From positions 1-21,923 of the IMG/VR virus record IMGVR_UViG_3300009159_000367: a DNA stretch of 21,923 bases; one strand, written 5' to 3'. The translations under genes and the position numbers were made by a program. The stretch is from a virus. Positions 5,347 to 19,710 of this stretch are shown here, piece by piece; positions within the stretch are counted from its first letter, which is position 1; each line of letters opens with the position of its first letter. Under the pieces are notes generated by a model, which saw only the letters and a program-made list of their open reading frames with translations, made no database searches and had not been told where the DNA came from.

Positions 5347-6375
5347 TTAGGCACTCTTCATACATGTTGTCTCGGCCATCAAGCGCCATTTTGCAGGGAA
5401 GCTCTTGACTAAGTCTGCAATCTTGAGCGCCATACGCAAGCTCATCTCACGCAAGCGAGCTTGGTTGGTGTTCATGAACTCAATGATGTCGTCTTGCTGG
5501 TACTCGTTAAAGTCGTAGTCCTGGAACAGTACGCCATCTTTGGCAATCTGCTTGATACGCAAGATCTTGTCACGCATGGTGTCCAAGGTCAAGTCCAGAT
5601 AGTGACAGCGTGACTGCAATGCATCCAAGTGATCCCGCAATTTTTGCGATTTCATTTTGTCAAACTTTAAGTTTGTAATAAAGATAACGCTACCTTTAAA
5701 CTCAAAACTGTCTGGGATGCCTTCTCTGCGCAGAGTGCTGGACTCCGACAACCAGGAAATTTTACGCTTCTTGCCTGAGTCCAGGGCACCTTTTAACAAG
5801 TTGAGTGCCACGTCATCTAACAAGATGCTGTCACAGTCATCGAACACCAAGACGCAATTGGCATCTGAGTACTTGTACAGGGTCTGGTACAGGCCAATTG
5901 GGGTGGCACTACCTTTGACAACTTCTGCACGGAGTCGCTTGCCTGACAGTTTGTCAAACAAACAAGCTTTGTCAACTTCGGCTTCTACACCGTAGCTCTT
6001 GCCCACACCAGGAGGGCCTGATACAATCATGGCACGAATGTCGCCTGATGTTGCGGCTTTGGTCATCTCTGTAAGAATCTCAAAACGCTCGCGGATACGA
6101 GTCATTGCTTCTTCCTCAGTTTCCTGGGGTTTTACAAAATCAATTGTGTTTTTTGCGGCTGTAGCTGTCACTGTATGTTCTCCAACAATTTCAATTTGTT
6201 CCATGCTGTCAACTTTGACACGCACCACGTCAAATTCTGCGCCAAAGTAGCCGTCACTTTTTACAGTAACAAACCCACCTCGTGCACCTTTTGTGTAATC
6301 TTTAACTAATGTAAAGGCAATGTTTTGCACAGATTTGTTGCGGTAATTGCCGTTGCGTATTAGTACTTGAGTCAT
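5347..6375 (-). CDS. AAA+ family ATPase
   Basis: A 342-residue protein. After an N-terminal domain of about 85 residues rich in beta strands comes an AAA+ module: Walker A GPPGVGKS (about 120-127), Walker B VLVFDDCD (about 175-182), sensor 1 FITN (about 232-235) and an arginine-finger candidate in the following helices (SQKLRDHL/LQSRCHY). The C-terminal region (about 270-340) is helical, with MSLRMALKIADLVKSFP typical of an AAA+ lid. It would use ATP to remodel a protein or DNA complex; the partner is unknown and it is not the clamp loader gp44 by its motifs. It leads an operon of six genes, has a strong AAGGAG ribosome site 8 bases before ATG and its own sigma70 promoter at 6408-6436, suggesting early expression. 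Confidence 0.9.
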   Translation of the reverse strand: MTQVLIRNGNYRNKSVQNIAFTLVKDYTKGARGGFVTVKSDGYFGAEFDVVRVKVDSMEQIEIVGEHTVTATAAKNTIDFVKPQETEEEAMTRIRERFEILTEMTKAATSGDIRAMIVSGPPGVGKSYGVEAEVDKACLFDKLSGKRLRAEVVKGSATPIGLYQTLYKYSDANCVLVFDDCDSILLDDVALNLLKGALDSGKKRKISWLSESSTLRREGIPDSFEFKGSVIFITNLKFDKMKSQKLRDHLDALQSRCHYLDLTLDTMRDKILRIKQIAKDGVLFQDYDFNEYQQDDIIEFMNTNQARLREMSLRMALKIADLVKSFPAKWRLMAETTCMKSA

Positions 6376-6610: not shown

Positions 6611-7108
6611 TCAAGGGGTTGATTCTGGTGCAATTGCCTGGCACTCATAATCAAATTCTATAGTAGATCCAGCAGGCACCCACCATACCCACTCACCAGT
6701 TTGATCTGGACTAGTGGTTTTTTTAGTTACCGGAATACCGTTAATACGAACATTAGTTTTTGTATCGCCTGCAGGTATGTCAATATTTTCAATTTGCATG
6801 AAAGTGGCCCCGGGTTCTGGGTCAGTGTCCGGAGTTCCTGGGGGCGGGAAATTGCCAATTGTGATTTGTTTTAATTTTAAATCACCGTTTGTTACAGTAA
6901 CCGATACTGGTAATATTCCAGCCAAGCTAACGTCAGTTTGCCATTTACATAGTGCTACACCGTCTACTCTTTTTTCTTCAGTGTAAGGTGCAATTGTGGG
7001 TACAGTACCAGAATATACTTCTGTGTCATTAAAATTTACCACAAGTGTTGCTGGATTTGTTGGGTCGCCCACAACTTCCCCTAATAATTCTTGCCATCTT
7101 TGAGCCAT
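6611..7108 (-). CDS. Beta-rich, probable virion-associated protein
   Basis: A 165-residue protein with alternating beta-strand pattern, few charges and two low-complexity turns: PPPGTPDTDPEPG in the middle splits it into two domains of about 90 and 60 residues. The first half (LVVNFNDTEVYSG, ILPVSVTVTNGDLKL) looks like a beta-sandwich of the carbohydrate-binding or Ig-like type that decorates phage virions; this is a structural impression, not a family match. It has an isolated position, its own late-type promoter (7131-7138), a good GGAG ribosome site 7 bases before ATG and its own terminator, all fitting a separately and highly expressed late structural protein. Confidence 0.75.
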   Translation of the reverse strand: MAQRWQELLGEVVGDPTNPATLVVNFNDTEVYSGTVPTIAPYTEEKRVDGVALCKWQTDVSLAGILPVSVTVTNGDLKLKQITIGNFPPPGTPDTDPEPGATFMQIENIDIPAGDTKTNVRINGIPVTKKTTSPDQTGEWVWWVPAGSTIEFDYECQAIAPESTP

Positions 7109-7130: not shown

Positions 7131-7138
7131 TATTTATC
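7131..7138 (-). promoter_or_regulatory. T4-late-type promoter box
   Basis: Minus strand GATAAATA (7138-7131), one to two bases off the T4 late consensus TATAAATA. It lies 22 bases before the ATG at 7108, so with a start about 6 bases downstream the message would have a short leader that includes the GGAG ribosome site. Confidence 0.5.
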
Positions 7139-7152
7139 ATTGAATTAGAGAA

Positions 7153-7872
7153 TCAAACCCAATGTTGAACAATCTTGTGATCCTGTACATCATGTGGTTT
7201 GGGCTTACCGTGGAAAACCACTATGCTTACATTTTCATCTAGAATAGCCCCTGCGTCGGGACGACGAACTGTACGAGTTCTCAAGTCCATCCCCCCATCG
7301 TTTACTTGCCAGCGCCAGCTTTGTACCAGACTTTCGTTAAAGAAACGTAGATTTGTTGCAGGCACAACTTCAGTTAAAAAGTCCTGGTCCCCGGGATACC
7401 TCCGAATAATTTCCATGGGATCGTTGTCAAGAAATTGCTTCCAAATATAAGGATGTGTTGCGTTGCTCCAGTACATTACACTAGAATTCATGCCCTGCCA
7501 ATCAGGGCGTTGCAGGTATTTAAAATCCCTAATAGACCAGAAATATCTAGGAGAACAATCCAGTATCCAATCAATTGATTTTACCAAAACAGTGTCAAGA
7601 TCAAAATACAACAATTGCCCCGGAAATGTGTCTGGGTTAAACAATTGCATTTTGTACCACCAAGACCGTCTTGGTCCAGCGACACCGGGCCATTCTTCCA
7701 GTGTGTGTTTGATCATGTGGTCTGGTACCGGCCTGCTGGCTTCAGTCCAAACATGTAGTTTTATTGGGCGAGACAAGTTTCTTGACAACATAGAATGCAG
7801 TCGGTCAACATAGGTCCAATCATACGCATTGCTGTGTATCACGCAGGCACAGTTTATAGGAGTTTGGTTCAT
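7153..7872 (-). CDS. GT8-like glycosyltransferase
   Basis: A 239-residue GT-A type glycosyltransferase-like protein. Visible motifs: the N-terminal strand CACVIHSNAYDW, the metal and nucleotide-sugar binding DxD in LLYFDLDTVLV (about residues 87-97), GDQDFL (about 162) and a C-terminal VVFHGKPKPHD, which matches the HxGxxKP pattern of glycogenin/GT8 enzymes. It should transfer a sugar from a nucleotide-sugar donor; the acceptor is not visible. The gene is transcribed divergently from the nucleotidyltransferase-cupin gene; a CTAAATA box stands 12 bases before its ATG and no Shine-Dalgarno sequence is present. First member of the carbohydrate island. Confidence 0.85.
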   Translation of the reverse strand: MNQTPINCACVIHSNAYDWTYVDRLHSMLSRNLSRPIKLHVWTEASRPVPDHMIKHTLEEWPGVAGPRRSWWYKMQLFNPDTFPGQLLYFDLDTVLVKSIDWILDCSPRYFWSIRDFKYLQRPDWQGMNSSVMYWSNATHPYIWKQFLDNDPMEIIRRYPGDQDFLTEVVPATNLRFFNESLVQSWRWQVNDGGMDLRTRTVRRPDAGAILDENVSIVVFHGKPKPHDVQDHKIVQHWV

Positions 7873-7884
7873 AGGGAGATTTGA

Positions 7885-7891
7885 TATTTAG
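7885..7891 (-). promoter_or_regulatory. Late-type promoter box CTAAATA
   Basis: Minus strand CTAAATA (7891-7885), 12 bases before the ATG at 7872. In T4-like phages a TATAAATA-like box recruits gp55-RNA polymerase and starts RNA about 6 bases downstream; that would give a leader of about 6 bases without a ribosome site. Confidence 0.45.
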
Positions 7892-7905: not shown

Positions 7906-7912
7906 ATAAATA
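7906..7912 (+). promoter_or_regulatory. Late-type promoter box ATAAATA
   Basis: Plus strand ATAAATA (7906-7912), 5 bases before the ATG at 7918, so transcription would be expected to begin at or beside the start codon. It drives the five-gene plus-strand operon and is arranged back to back with the minus-strand box at 7885-7891 in a 45-base divergent gap. Confidence 0.5.
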
Positions 7913-7917
7913 TCATT

Positions 7918-8676
7918 ATGAAAATAATTGTTGTCACTGGTGGGTTTGATCCACTGCACTCCGGTCACATTGCCTATTTCAAGGCTGCTCGAGCACTTGG
8001 GGATAGGTTAGTTGTGGGACTTAATTCTGATGAATGGCTTGCCCGTAAGAAAGGTAGACCTTTCATGCCTTTGCAAGAACGAATGACTATAGTAGGTAAT
8101 CTTGCAATGGTTGACGAAGTTGTTGTTTACAACGACGATGATGGATCCAGCTGTGATGCTATCAGACTGATCAAAGCTCGCTATCCCACAGCAGATATTG
8201 TGTTTGCCAATGGTGGCGATCGTACTCAAGATAACATCCCTGAAATGGTTGTTGAAGGTGTAGAATTTGTGTTTGGTGTTGGTGGTCAGGACAAGAAGAA
8301 TAGCTCAAGTTGGATTCTTGAAGACTGGAAAAAGCCCAAGACGGGCCGAGCCTGGGGGTACTATCGTGTGTTGCACGAAGTTGGCACGCATACAAAACTT
8401 AAAGAACTCACGGTAAACCCAAAAACTTGCCTTAGTATGCAACGCCATGAAAAACGTGCTGAGTTTTGGTTTGTGGCCGAAGGCGAAGCCACAGTATACA
8501 CAGTGGATCCGCATAGCACAGACCGTGACTTAATGGCAAGCCCGGCAAAGCATCAGTCGACATGGATCAGACTAAATGAATGGCATCAACTGTGCAACGA
8601 AACTGACAAACCGTTAAAGTTGATTGAAATACAATATGGCGAAGATTGTGTGGAAGAGGACATTGAACGCCGATGA
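7918..8676 (+). CDS. HxGH nucleotidyltransferase fused to PMI-type cupin
   Basis: A 252-residue fusion. Residues 1 to about 135 are a cytidylyl/adenylyltransferase of the HxGH superfamily (as in HldE C-terminal domain, TagD): GGFDPLHSGH (8-17), the helix after it, and a KNSSSWI element (127-133) in the place of the family's ISSSxI/ISTTxI motif. Such enzymes make CDP- or ADP-activated sugars or polyols. Residues about 142-252 are a cupin like the C-terminal domain of type II mannose-6-phosphate isomerases (ManC): WGYYRVL, LSMQRHEKRAEFW with metal-ligand candidates H177 and E182, EWHQLCN with H223, and the tail IEIQYGEDCVEEDIER. The module pair suggests sugar-phosphate isomerisation or binding plus activation in one chain. 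It leads the plus-strand glycosyltransferase operon, and the ATG is 5 bases from a late-type box with no Shine-Dalgarno sequence. Confidence 0.9.
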   Translation: MKIIVVTGGFDPLHSGHIAYFKAARALGDRLVVGLNSDEWLARKKGRPFMPLQERMTIVGNLAMVDEVVVYNDDDGSSCDAIRLIKARYPTADIVFANGGDRTQDNIPEMVVEGVEFVFGVGGQDKKNSSSWILEDWKKPKTGRAWGYYRVLHEVGTHTKLKELTVNPKTCLSMQRHEKRAEFWFVAEGEATVYTVDPHSTDRDLMASPAKHQSTWIRLNEWHQLCNETDKPLKLIEIQYGEDCVEEDIERR

Positions 8677-11381: not shown

Positions 11382-12064
11382 TGTTGGTCACAGTATTATT
11401 ACCCACACGGCATAGAACATCCTTGGTTGAACGCACAGTTCGTTCACTACTGGACCAGGCCAGCAACCCTGCACAGATTGAAATAGCTGTGGCCTATGAT
11501 GAAGATGATACAGAAAGTCATGATTACTTTGGTTCCGCAACATGGACTACTTTAGTTGCTGATTATGGCTCAGGGCTACAAGTACACAAAACCCCGGCTT
11601 GGGGGTATCAAGAACTACACCAATATTATAATTTACTAGCAGATCATGCGCAAGGAAAATGGCTACTGGTTTGGAATGATGATGCTTTGATGAAATCTGC
11701 TGGCTGGGATAGTATGGTACAACAAGAACAAGATTACATGGGCATGTTGCACATGGTTACCGAAAACTATCGACCAAAATTTGCATTGTTTCCCTTGATT
11801 CCACGAAAGTGGGTTGACCTTTTTGGCTCGGTAAGTTTGTCAAACTCCAACGATTCTTGGATACATCATATTTGTTTAGAAGCAAATGCTATCAAATTGA
11901 TCGATGCTGTAGCATTTCATGACCGAGCGGATCTCACGGGCAACAATCTAGATCAAACGTATCTAAATAGAACCAATCAAAAAAAACTTTACAAATCAGA
12001 ATCCATGCGTCAAATCAGACATGAGTGGGCACAACGACTCATTGAATATCGAGCACAACTATAG
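11381..12064 (+). CDS. GT2-like glycosyltransferase
   Basis: 227 residues from the ATG at 11381, which shares its A with the TAA of the previous gene (TAATG). A longer in-frame start at 11351 would give 237 residues and a 31-base overlap and is less likely. The protein opens with VTVLLPTRHRTSLVERTVRSL, the classic first strand and helix of family 2 glycosyltransferases, followed by IEIAVAYDEDD and by KWLLVWNDDALM (about residues 94-105), the DD/DxD donor and metal site. Family 2 enzymes invert configuration and build many bacterial surface glycans. It ends convergently with the minus-strand gene 12059-12868: the six-base palindrome CTATAG supplies a TAG stop on each strand. Confidence 0.85.
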   Translation: MLVTVLLPTRHRTSLVERTVRSLLDQASNPAQIEIAVAYDEDDTESHDYFGSATWTTLVADYGSGLQVHKTPAWGYQELHQYYNLLADHAQGKWLLVWNDDALMKSAGWDSMVQQEQDYMGMLHMVTENYRPKFALFPLIPRKWVDLFGSVSLSNSNDSWIHHICLEANAIKLIDAVAFHDRADLTGNNLDQTYLNRTNQKKLYKSESMRQIRHEWAQRLIEYRAQL

Positions 12065-12868
12065 ATATTTTTGTTGCTCTTGTTTGAACACGTCTAGTTC
12101 TTTGCGCTTGCCCTTGGCACTCCAAATAGTACTGTCTGGATTCATGTGCCAATCGATGTAAGTCACTGGCAGCGCACCTTTACGATACCTACCAATAATG
12201 TTGTCTAGGCTGTGTTGGTCTAGGAACCAGTAAATATTGTCTTTTTCAATTTCTGCACGTATTGTATTACCTAGTTCTTGTATAAAGTTTACTCCTGTGG
12301 GACGTTCAGTAAACAACATTGCCCCAGCAAGATGTCCGCCCTTGGCCTTTTCATACAAATAAACATCAGTCTTTGGGTCATTGTGCAGTATGTATTCAAA
12401 TGGCGCCCGTACCAGGCCGTCAACATCTATTTCTAAAAATCTAGTGGGCTTTTGTATAATTTCAGCCATGCGAACAAATCGCATACAAGCATAGTAAGTT
12501 TTCCACAACCATGTTCTTAAACTTTCAAGGTTGTTGCCTTTGAGTTCATATTGTTTGAGTCCCAGCATTTTTCGTTTGCGACCCATGTAGGGATCTGGGA
12601 TTACATCTGGACTCCAAAAATCAAAAGCTGATTGAAACTGTGCTTGATCAACTGTTTCCCATGTAACACTCACACGAGCATGTTGTTGACAAAACACCAG
12701 CTGGTCCTGTCTGGGGTTATACAAGTGCAAGTGTATGCCATGTTGGGTATTACGAGTTACACTGTTGATTAAAGGTATGCCGTGACAGTCAAAATAATCA
12801 GCGTCTGCGGCAGCATAGATAAAGAAATTAGCTTGGTCGAGCTTTCCTTGAAGTGGTGATATCTGCAT
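12059..12868 (-). CDS. Putative GT-A type glycosyltransferase
   Basis: A 269-residue protein with an N-terminal strand and turn NFFIYAAADADYF, a middle DxD-type motif in RFLEIDVDGLVRAPF (about residues 142-156), LDQHSLDNIIG (about 216-226), and a C-terminal YIDWHMNPDSTIWSAKGKRK, which occupies the position of the HxGxxK element in GT8-like enzymes. This supports a nucleotide-sugar dependent transferase, though similarity to characterised families is weaker than for the 7153-7872 product. It is a single gene on the minus strand between two plus-strand units, and is divergent from the 12887 gene across an 18-base gap containing the palindrome TTAAATATTTAA. Confidence 0.75.
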   Translation of the reverse strand: MQISPLQGKLDQANFFIYAAADADYFDCHGIPLINSVTRNTQHGIHLHLYNPRQDQLVFCQQHARVSVTWETVDQAQFQSAFDFWSPDVIPDPYMGRKRKMLGLKQYELKGNNLESLRTWLWKTYYACMRFVRMAEIIQKPTRFLEIDVDGLVRAPFEYILHNDPKTDVYLYEKAKGGHLAGAMLFTERPTGVNFIQELGNTIRAEIEKDNIYWFLDQHSLDNIIGRYRKGALPVTYIDWHMNPDSTIWSAKGKRKELDVFKQEQQKYL

Positions 12869-12870
12869 AG

Positions 12871-12882
12871 TTAAATATTTAA
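12871..12882. promoter_or_regulatory. Palindromic divergent late-type promoter box
   Basis: TTAAATATTTAA is a perfect palindrome holding a TTAAATA box on each strand: the minus box ends 7 bases before the ATG at 12868 and the plus box ends 9 bases before the ATG at 12887. Neither gene has a Shine-Dalgarno sequence, and two polymerases could not occupy it together. Confidence 0.45.
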
Positions 12883-12886
12883 CCCT

Positions 12887-13726
12887 ATGAACATCGCCTA
12901 CTTCCCAAATCAGATTGCCAGAAATGCCGGTCCAGTACTTGATGCTTTTTTACAAAGTTGTCGCAATCGCGGTATATCAACTGTGCAAGATTCAATGGAT
13001 GCCGACATGGCCGTGATCTGGAGCCATGTTTGGGCTGGTAAAATGCGAAAAAATCAACTGGTATGGCAGCATTATCGCAAACACAATCTACCTGTGATTG
13101 TACTAGAAGTAGGCAACCTAAAACGAGATGTCACCTGGCGGGTGGGGTTAAATGGTATCAACAGATCAGGATATTTTGGAGCAGTTGATCAAGGTCCCAC
13201 AAGGGCACAGCAATTGGGGCTGGAGTTGGCGCCATGGCGCAATACCGGAAATTATATATTGATATGCACACAACGTGCCGACAGCGAGCAGTGGTGCAAT
13301 CAACCTGCTCCCGAACAATGGGTTAGTGATATTATCAAACGCATACGGTGTTACACCAATAGGCCTATTGTTGTCAGACCTCACCCAAGATTTCAGTTTA
13401 AAAAGGCCTGGCCAGATGTTGCCATGCACCAACCGCTAAAAATACCCAACACATACGATAGTTACAACTTTGATAGTGCACTAGACAACGCCTGGGCTGT
13501 GGTAAATTGGAACAGTGGGCCAGGAGTTGAGGCAGTTATGAAAGGCGTGCCTGCTTTTGTTGGGGCAACAAGCCTGGCAGCACCTGTGGCCAATATTGAT
13601 TTCTCGCTTGTTGAACAACCACTACGTCCCGATAGACAGCAGTGGTTAAATGATTTGGCCTACACTGAGTGGACCGTTGGGGAAATCGCCCAGGGACTTC
13701 CTTTACAACGGTTGCTTTACACTTGA
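12887..13726 (+). CDS. GT-B/capsule-type glycosyltransferase-like protein (paralog C)
   Basis: A 279-residue protein. It shares with the two other paralogs a strand YILICTQRADSEQW, RPIVVRPHPRF (the HP motif of capsule and teichoic-acid-type GT-B enzymes), NAWAVVNWNSGPGVEAVMKGVPAF and the tail EQPLRPDRQQWLNDLAYTEW, ending with a short Leu-rich segment. The N-terminal 90 residues include MAVIWSHVWAGKM, a plausible acceptor-domain strand. It is transcribed alone on the plus strand and its last 10 bases overlap the end of the convergent UvsY-like gene. It likely transfers a sugar, donor unknown. Confidence 0.8.
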   Translation: MNIAYFPNQIARNAGPVLDAFLQSCRNRGISTVQDSMDADMAVIWSHVWAGKMRKNQLVWQHYRKHNLPVIVLEVGNLKRDVTWRVGLNGINRSGYFGAVDQGPTRAQQLGLELAPWRNTGNYILICTQRADSEQWCNQPAPEQWVSDIIKRIRCYTNRPIVVRPHPRFQFKKAWPDVAMHQPLKIPNTYDSYNFDSALDNAWAVVNWNSGPGVEAVMKGVPAFVGATSLAAPVANIDFSLVEQPLRPDRQQWLNDLAYTEWTVGEIAQGLPLQRLLYT

Positions 13727-17663: not shown

Positions 17664-19697
17664 TCAGTATTTGAGCATTTGCTTGAGGCGTAGTACAGGA
17701 TCCGCTGACTCACTTGACATGTTTGATGGTTTGGTCATCATGACCCCGTCGGTGTCCAGGTCTTCAGCCATGCCTTGCTTTTGTAGATATCCATAATTAG
17801 TCACAAAATCGCTGACAAAATCTTCATCGCGGAATATACCATTTACGCTGGTACCTAGATTGGGTTCTTTTTTGGCCATATCATAGCCTGCTTTTATGAT
17901 GTCGTCTTGGTTTTGCAAATTGGGCATTTGAGCAAAAACTTTTTCTGCCAGTTGTTCTGCATAGAAGGAGCCATGTCCTTCCGCCAAACCTTGCTCATTC
18001 ATACCGTCAAGTGCTTTTTCAACGTATTGCATATAGGCATACATGTCACTGCTGCCAATTTCTTCTACATCACCAAAAAATTCAGCGGCATCATCGATTG
18101 CTTGAGTAACTTTTACTGGACCATACTTCTTTAGTAAATCCAAACGTTGCGTCATGATGCGACGGGTAAGGGCACTAGCCACTGGGCTAGCGTCGTGGCC
18201 TTCTGCTACAGGGTTTTTACCATACCTATCCACTAGTTGTTGGACAAAGAAATCATAAAACTCACGACGCTCTCTGTAATCTCTTTCTCCAACTTGATAT
18301 TTTATTGCGGCCACAGCATCCAACCATGTTGGACCACGCATTATTTTTAATCCGTTAGTAACCAGCGTATCAACTCTATCTGAGCCTTCTGTTACATCTT
18401 GTTCATAGTCGCCTTCGGGATCAATTCCGTGTTTGTTAATATCGATGTCAAGATTTTCTTCATCATCTGTGGCGCTAGTAGTTGGTGTAATATCAATGCC
18501 AAGCTCACCTAGTCGATTGATAACGCCGGGATCTTCCCAGCAGTTGGCGTCAGGGTTTTCGTCAGCTAGATCACCTAAACGATCAAACAAGATGTCATCA
18601 CCTACTAGGTCATACAGTTGTTCTGTAGCATTAGTAGCATCAGTTCCAACAATCAAGGGCTTGCTCATCAAGTCCTTTAATTGTTGTTCTGTTTCTGCAT
18701 CATTGGGCAAGGCCCATGTACCTTCCATGACCCGGTTGGTCCAACATTCAAATTCGTCTGCTTCACGCATGGGAGTTTCCTTTAGTTTTGCTAGTATAGG
18801 CAATGCTTCTTCAATTCTTGAGTCTAGCGTTTGCTCTATAAACATATTGCGAATAGATTCAGCCATTTTACTGCTGTCGTTGATTTCAGCAGGGTCAAAT
18901 GATTCACGAGCTTCGTGATAACCACGTTGACTGATCATGTGTTTGGCCTTGGCTTTTAGATCACTGTAGTGACGAACAGCCGCTTCAATTAGTTTGGCAG
19001 CCTCACCTGTAAACGGTTTGTGCTTGGCAGCACGAATAAATCTACTCAAGGTAGCTATTTCAGTTACAATTTCATTGATGTGGTTGCCGAATGCGTCATA
19101 TGGATTGCCACCTTCGGCTACGTGTCGAGCAATCATGCGACCGTGTGCAAGGCTACGACTGGGAACTTTAAAACGCTCACCGTCAGCTGTCTCCACAAAC
19201 AAACTTTCAATTGCACGATGTCGAGGTTCACCTTCAAGGATATTGCGATTGTGTTTGATCATCAAACGAACTTGTTTGGGCTGGTCACTATAACTAACAT
19301 TCTTTTTGCCGTAATAGCCTTCAAACAATCCTTCTTTGATGGCAGCCATGCCTTTCATGGTATATTTCAAGCGACTGATATTATCTGCACTAAAGTTTTT
19401 AAAATTGTTACCCATGGCAAAATGTTTCATTTGCTCTAGGAAATTATACCAGGCTTTTTTGTCGTCTTGTTCCATTGTGCGACCTAGATTGTCGCCAAAG
19501 AACACAGTGAAATCTTTGTTGGCCCCAAACAGTATAACAACTGTTCCGTAATTTTTGTTTTCCGTTTTCCAATTGAACACAAACATCTCTGCTTCTGCGG
19601 GATTATCCACAGGATTTGCGTTGGCATCTTTGATCTCGGGCTCAAGATCTTTGGTTACTAAATCGTTGTAAAGGGAGGTGGCTGCAGGATTTTCCAT
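17664..19697 (-). CDS. Large acidic phage protein, probably head- or structure-associated
   Basis: A 677-residue soluble, strongly helical and acidic protein with no membrane segment or known catalytic motif. Two parts can be seen: residues about 1-330 hold FVFNWKTENKNYGTVVILFG and a long helical stretch, and the C-terminal part holds PVASALTRRIMTQRLDLLKKYGP and DDAAEFFGDVEEIGSSD, which I associate with uncharacterised structural-type proteins of aquatic T4-like phages. The element AEG recurs: HVAEGGNP, PVAEGHD and GLAEGHG (571-574 = LAEG), with LAE again at 583-585 and MAE at 643-645; L/I-x-E is the cleavage rule of the T4 prohead protease gp21. It is transcribed from a late-type box only 6 bases before its ATG, fits late expression, and is near terminase. 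Function is inferred, not shown. Confidence 0.75.
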   Translation of the reverse strand: MENPAATSLYNDLVTKDLEPEIKDANANPVDNPAEAEMFVFNWKTENKNYGTVVILFGANKDFTVFFGDNLGRTMEQDDKKAWYNFLEQMKHFAMGNNFKNFSADNISRLKYTMKGMAAIKEGLFEGYYGKKNVSYSDQPKQVRLMIKHNRNILEGEPRHRAIESLFVETADGERFKVPSRSLAHGRMIARHVAEGGNPYDAFGNHINEIVTEIATLSRFIRAAKHKPFTGEAAKLIEAAVRHYSDLKAKAKHMISQRGYHEARESFDPAEINDSSKMAESIRNMFIEQTLDSRIEEALPILAKLKETPMREADEFECWTNRVMEGTWALPNDAETEQQLKDLMSKPLIVGTDATNATEQLYDLVGDDILFDRLGDLADENPDANCWEDPGVINRLGELGIDITPTTSATDDEENLDIDINKHGIDPEGDYEQDVTEGSDRVDTLVTNGLKIMRGPTWLDAVAAIKYQVGERDYRERREFYDFFVQQLVDRYGKNPVAEGHDASPVASALTRRIMTQRLDLLKKYGPVKVTQAIDDAAEFFGDVEEIGSSDMYAYMQYVEKALDGMNEQGLAEGHGSFYAEQLAEKVFAQMPNLQNQDDIIKAGYDMAKKEPNLGTSVNGIFRDEDFVSDFVTNYGYLQKQGMAEDLDTDGVMMTKPSNMSSESADPVLRLKQMLKY

Positions 19698-19703
19698 ATT
19701 GTA

Positions 19704-19710
19704 TATTTAG
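19704..19710 (-). promoter_or_regulatory. Late-type promoter box CTAAATA
   Basis: Minus strand CTAAATA (19710-19704), 6 bases before the ATG at 19697. It contains the TAA stop of the upstream methyltransferase gene. With a start about 6 bases downstream the message would begin at the ATG; no Shine-Dalgarno sequence is present. Confidence 0.5.

Follow-up and report, generated by a model that had tools for sequence, protein, structure and literature searches.

A T4-type late promoter box against many start codons in uncultured T4-related giant phages: candidate leaderless late messages

Results

The window and its putative late promoter boxes

The window, that is, the whole stretch of DNA analysed here, is a 21.9 kb virus record (21,923 nt, IMG/VR record IMGVR_UViG_3300009159_000367) whose terminase shares 51–54% identity with the terminases of Sinorhizobium phage Phosso, Agrobacterium phage Atu_ph07 and Pseudomonas phage PA5oct. 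It encodes UvsX, a UvsY-like mediator, a gp32-like ssDNA-binding protein, a UvsW-type helicase and a set of glycosyltransferases. Judging from the terminase identities together with the UvsX, UvsY-like, gp32-like and UvsW-type genes, the window stems from a jumbo phage of the T4 superfamily, of whose genome it is a fragment. Between positions 7153 and 13726 lies a glycosyltransferase island, including an HldE-like cytidylyltransferase with a cupin domain, which suggests surface-glycan modification.

The hexamer TAAATA occurs 13 times in the window, against a mean of 15.0 in shuffled sequences, so that its overall count is at chance level. The sequence-only reading had singled out five boxes of the form NTAAATA close to start codons, and we confirmed all of them, 5, 6, 7, 9 and 12 nt before the ATGs at 7918, 19697, 12868, 12887 and 7872, respectively (Table 1). 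Thus, 5 of the 13 sites lie 5–12 nt upstream of an ATG that opens a real gene, whereas we put the expectation for such positions below 0.1; for spacers of 4–7 nt alone, three are observed and 0.2 predicted from control hexamers. The boxes of 7918, 12868 and 19697 belong to this sharp 4–7 nt class, while those of 12887 (9 nt) and 7872 (12 nt) fall outside the class as seen in relatives and are atypical and marginal, and messages from them would carry a leader a few bases long. Inspection of the sequence also bears out that none of the five boxed starts has a Shine-Dalgarno (SD) sequence, the gap between box and ATG being too short to hold one, whereas the contrast genes at 6375 (AAGGAG), 15490 (AAGGA), 17515 (AAAGG) and 7108 (GGAG, behind a more distant box) do have one. 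A palindrome, GTTAAATATTTAAC (window 12869–12886), supplies overlapping late boxes, one per strand, to the divergent genes starting at 12868 and 12887, which are 18 bp apart.

Table 1. Late boxes of the window and the genes that follow them.
Feature	Position	Strand	Remarks
Late box CTAAATA	19704..19710	-	6 nt before ATG at 19697; spacing to the conserved start 4–7 nt in 38/38 listed full-start homologues
Leaderless-class gene: 677 aa virion structural protein, phrog_13484, next after terL	17664..19697	-	
Late box ATAAATA	7906..7912	+	5 nt before ATG at 7918; 31/32 variants at 5–6 nt
Leaderless-class gene: HldE-like cytidylyltransferase with cupin domain	7918..8676	+	
Late box TTAAATA	12876..12882	-	7 nt before ATG at 12868; overlaps the + strand box; 8/8 variants at 5–7 nt
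Leaderless-class gene, without family match	12059..12868	-	
Late box TTAAATA, atypical	12871..12877	+	9 nt before ATG at 12887; predicted leader about 3–4 nt
Gene behind the 9-nt box	12887..13726	+	Orthologues mostly leadered
Late box CTAAATA, atypical	7885..7891	-	12 nt before ATG at 7872
Glycosyltransferase behind the 12-nt box, phrog_1962	7153..7872	-	
Late box ATAAATA, leadered class	7131..7137	-	22 nt before ATG at 7108, GGAG SD in the gap; internal contrast

Enrichment in related genomes and two spacing classes

A lack of enrichment of the box at a fixed distance from the ATG had been named beforehand as a refuting outcome; related genomes instead show enrichment, as a sharp peak at 4–7 nt. 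Using related IMG/VR loci together with contigs G002, G003 and G013, and permuted hexamers of the same composition as controls, 326 of 1268 distinct TAAATA sites (26%) lie 4–7 nt before an ATG with a long open reading frame, in comparison with 359 of 21907 control sites (1.6%), which corresponds to an odds ratio of 20.8; the loci are redundant and phylogenetically linked, so that the sites are not independent and P values are overstated. Gene calls outside GenBank records were made with a simple ORF-calling script. Counting protein-similarity clusters with an ATG, there are 19, 35, 7 and 21 at spacers 4, 5, 6 and 7 (82 in total), versus 0–4 at each spacer from 8 to 15. Starts with GTG or TTG behind the boxes gave a flat background only, the peak being confined to ATG. 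Two additional locus sets, fetched by the PA5oct and Phosso terminases, also display the 4–7 nt peak, the second of them almost solely at spacer 5 (97 sites).

When boxed genes are pooled over the window, G013, G002 and G003 (window genes recur in G013), two classes are evident, with 55 genes at 4–7 nt, 72 at 13–39 nt and few between. An SD core is found between box and ATG in 59 of the 72 genes of the leadered (13–39 nt) class and in 0 of the 55 of the leaderless class, which start on AUG without an SD. In T4, PA5oct, Atu_ph07, Phosso and phiM12 only the leadered class rises above background, with no excess at 4–7 nt (in T4, 2 seen against 2.9 expected), and Vibrio phage 2.275.O has three boxes at 4–7 nt against 1.5 expected. 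Most long members of the clade encode the ribosomal protein bS21 (genes were found in G001, G002, G004, G008, G009, G011, G012, G015, G021–G023, G025 and G027–G029, as well as in PA5oct, Atu_ph07, Phosso and HTVC008M); as a cause of the leaderless class bS21 was rejected, since Phosso, Atu_ph07 and PA5oct encode it and all are without that class.

The late sigma factor and the predicted start site

A gp55-type sigma factor (phrog_234) is encoded by nine relatives, with E values of about 1e-23 to 1e-25, and by every named phage tested; that of G002 matches phrog_12791 at 7e-74. The gene is absent from the 22 kb window, itself only part of a genome. In G002 (303045–303944) and relatives the protein measures about 300 aa, and its T4-like domain is preceded by a long extension at the N-terminus. 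In the T4 structure gp55 reads promoter adenines at −12, −9 and −8 (PMC7892883), and from these contacts we infer that TATAAATA spans −13 to −6, which would put +1 at the sixth base after the box.

With a spacer of 5 nt this T4-register +1 coincides with the A of the ATG. Among 76 leadered promoters from the window clade, steps from a pyrimidine to A are enriched at positions 5 (25) and 6 (22) downstream of the box, which the A of the ATG occupies for spacers 4 and 5; elsewhere they number mostly 7–16, with 20 at position 8. The 7-nt class, which would need transcription either to begin 2 nt beyond the T4 position or to leave three leader bases, counts against the leaderless explanation. Promoters with this spacer (the 104-member family and others) have A at position 5 (81%) and T at position 7 (81%), a pattern which suggests either such a three-base leader or a small downstream shift of the start. 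This signal, along with the dip at spacer 6, hints at two start-site registers three bases apart. Overall, the mRNA 5′ end is predicted to lie 0–3 nt from the AUG for spacers 4–7.

Conservation, distribution and gene content of the classes

The short spacing is strictly kept in the cluster of the gene downstream of terL (17664–19697), where all 104 distinct variants have the box at 4–7 nt and the protein is conserved from its ATG methionine onward among the 38 listed homologues that reach the start. It is also kept in two other families, at 28/28 and 28/29 distinct sites. Orthologues of the 12887 gene have boxes mostly 14–21 nt upstream, and the few orthologues of the 7872 gene have them at 4, 8, 9 and 12 nt. 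On the terminase tree the 4–7 nt trait extends across most of a large clade and is absent from the Atu_ph07/Phosso branch, whose members, where they show a box before the terL-downstream gene, have it 22–24 nt upstream. The tree forces at least 11 changes of the trait, which indicates that gains or losses have occurred.

In the relatives, TAAATA boxes lie upstream of portal, sheath, tube and other virion proteins. The leaderless class includes the portal gene, in 8 of 11 genomes, along with further virion proteins and radical-SAM and glycan genes. A leadered box precedes the tail sheath gene in 15 of 16 genomes, while no box lies within 60 nt of the capsid gene, for which most of eight genomes show an SD. 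The cultured Pelagibacter phage HTVC008M shows the short spacing independently, with 12 annotated genes, mostly orthologues of T4 late genes, that have the box at exactly 5 nt: genes behind boxes at this distance encode the tape measure, gp2, gp4, the baseplate cap, gp25 and gp3, whereas its sheath, tube and capsid genes have SDs. In T4 the former set of proteins is of low copy number, and sheath, tube and capsid are of high copy number. This difference in copy number suggests a possible role for box position in late-gene stoichiometry. In the HTVC008M relatives Melnitz and Mosig, pattern counts do not exceed the reversed-pattern control, so that not all of this family shares the trait.

Discussion

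Taken together, these genome comparisons make it probable (roughly 0.86) that some of the late genes in this phage clade, among them those for the portal, minor virion proteins and accessory functions, are transcribed from gp55-type late promoters as leaderless mRNAs. The boxes would be T4-type late promoters read by a gp55-like sigma; for the subset concerned, transcription would start on the A of the ATG or at most about 3 nt upstream, and the ribosome would begin on the 5′-terminal AUG without SD pairing, while other late genes would have the same box 13–39 nt upstream and an SD leader. The box, its spacing class, the lack of an SD, the conservation and the gp55 gene of the relatives can be read from the sequences themselves. 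The proposal that accessory and structural genes are leaderless is supported for a subset of late genes, considering the 4–7 nt peak, the lack of SDs there and their presence in the leadered class, the orthologue conservation and the occurrence of gp55 in the clade; it does not extend to sheath, tube and capsid, which keep SD leaders or SDs, and the 9- and 12-nt boxes are marginal.

The main rival is that the box beside the ATG is not a promoter but an AU-rich translation signal within a longer mRNA from an upstream promoter. Unstructured AU-rich starts favour initiation, and the first 40 nt are weakly folded in both classes, slightly more weakly in the leaderless one; as a discriminator this difference is slight and not decisive (P 0.04). 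Also, 36 of the 55 genes at 4–7 nt have a co-directional upstream neighbour that could donate such an mRNA, but the other 19 are divergent from theirs and therefore receive no read-through from it. A translation signal would not explain why the identical hexamer lies 13–39 nt upstream of other late genes and in T4, nor why the register agrees with the T4 start site. Moreover, orthologues switch between the two positions, as in those beginning MYSTTAYLYQQ, with the box at 7 or 16 nt. In fact, 18 of 37 clusters of at least three members are mixed between spacing classes, which fits a promoter able to occupy either position, even though such mixing of many families counts against the leaderless explanation. 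On balance we regard the translation signal as improbable.

Misannotation of the starts, with the true ATG and its SD further downstream behind an ordinary leader, is less probable still: simple ORF calling does favour upstream starts, but protein similarity to distant homologues begins within a few residues of these ATGs and the independent GenBank annotation of HTVC008M has the same ones. That an AT-rich hexamer fell by chance into short gaps between genes, a reading in line with the unremarkable total count in the window, is excluded by the controls for practical purposes, as permuted hexamers of the same composition give no such peak and the placement is conserved across divergent genomes.

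Returning to leaderless late transcription, its output would suit lower-copy products. A tentative extension, to which we give somewhat less than even odds, is that a single late promoter type acts as a dial, set against the ATG for leaderless expression of low-copy virion and accessory proteins and 13–39 nt upstream, with an SD, for high-copy ones, and that this arrangement arose at least twice, in the jumbo clade and in HTVC008M.

The closest known system is the T4 late promoter TATAAATA with gp55, gp33 and gp45 (PMC7892883), which has in common the box sequence, the expected start register, the gp55-type sigma and the virion genes downstream, but whose boxes lie farther upstream, ahead of SD leaders. 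Cyanophage late promoters NATAAATA (S-PM2, Syn9; PMC2984593) share box and gp55 with the window clade; in Syn9 the 34 kb that we tested lack a 4–7 nt class, and the pattern is in no clear excess genome-wide. In Deinococcus-Thermus (PMC12340547) a −10-type element at a short fixed distance before the reading frame likewise yields leaderless mRNA and is a promoter rather than a ribosome-binding site, although there it is TANNNT with the host RpoD, unlike the phage late-sigma box of the window clade. The lambda cI message (PMC4965119) is a natural phage mRNA beginning at AUG, but concerns a single regulatory gene instead of many late genes across a clade. Our literature search, confined to open-licence papers, found no description of leaderless late genes in T4-like phages, which is weak evidence of novelty.

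On this evidence, a predicted late promoter stands directly against many start codons in a large, uncultured group of T4-related giant phages of lakes and seas. Such boxes would bear on gene calling, and their position next to the ATG, seen also in HTVC008M, may help to explain why late-promoter detection failed in the pelagimyophages, as reported by the authors of a survey of that group (PMC7029224). If the leaderless reading is true, a whole clade of abundant aquatic phages would, in the late phase of infection, have many of its late genes translated with no need of SD pairing; this would make leaderless translation testable in the hosts, and promoter position could set the stoichiometry of late gene products.
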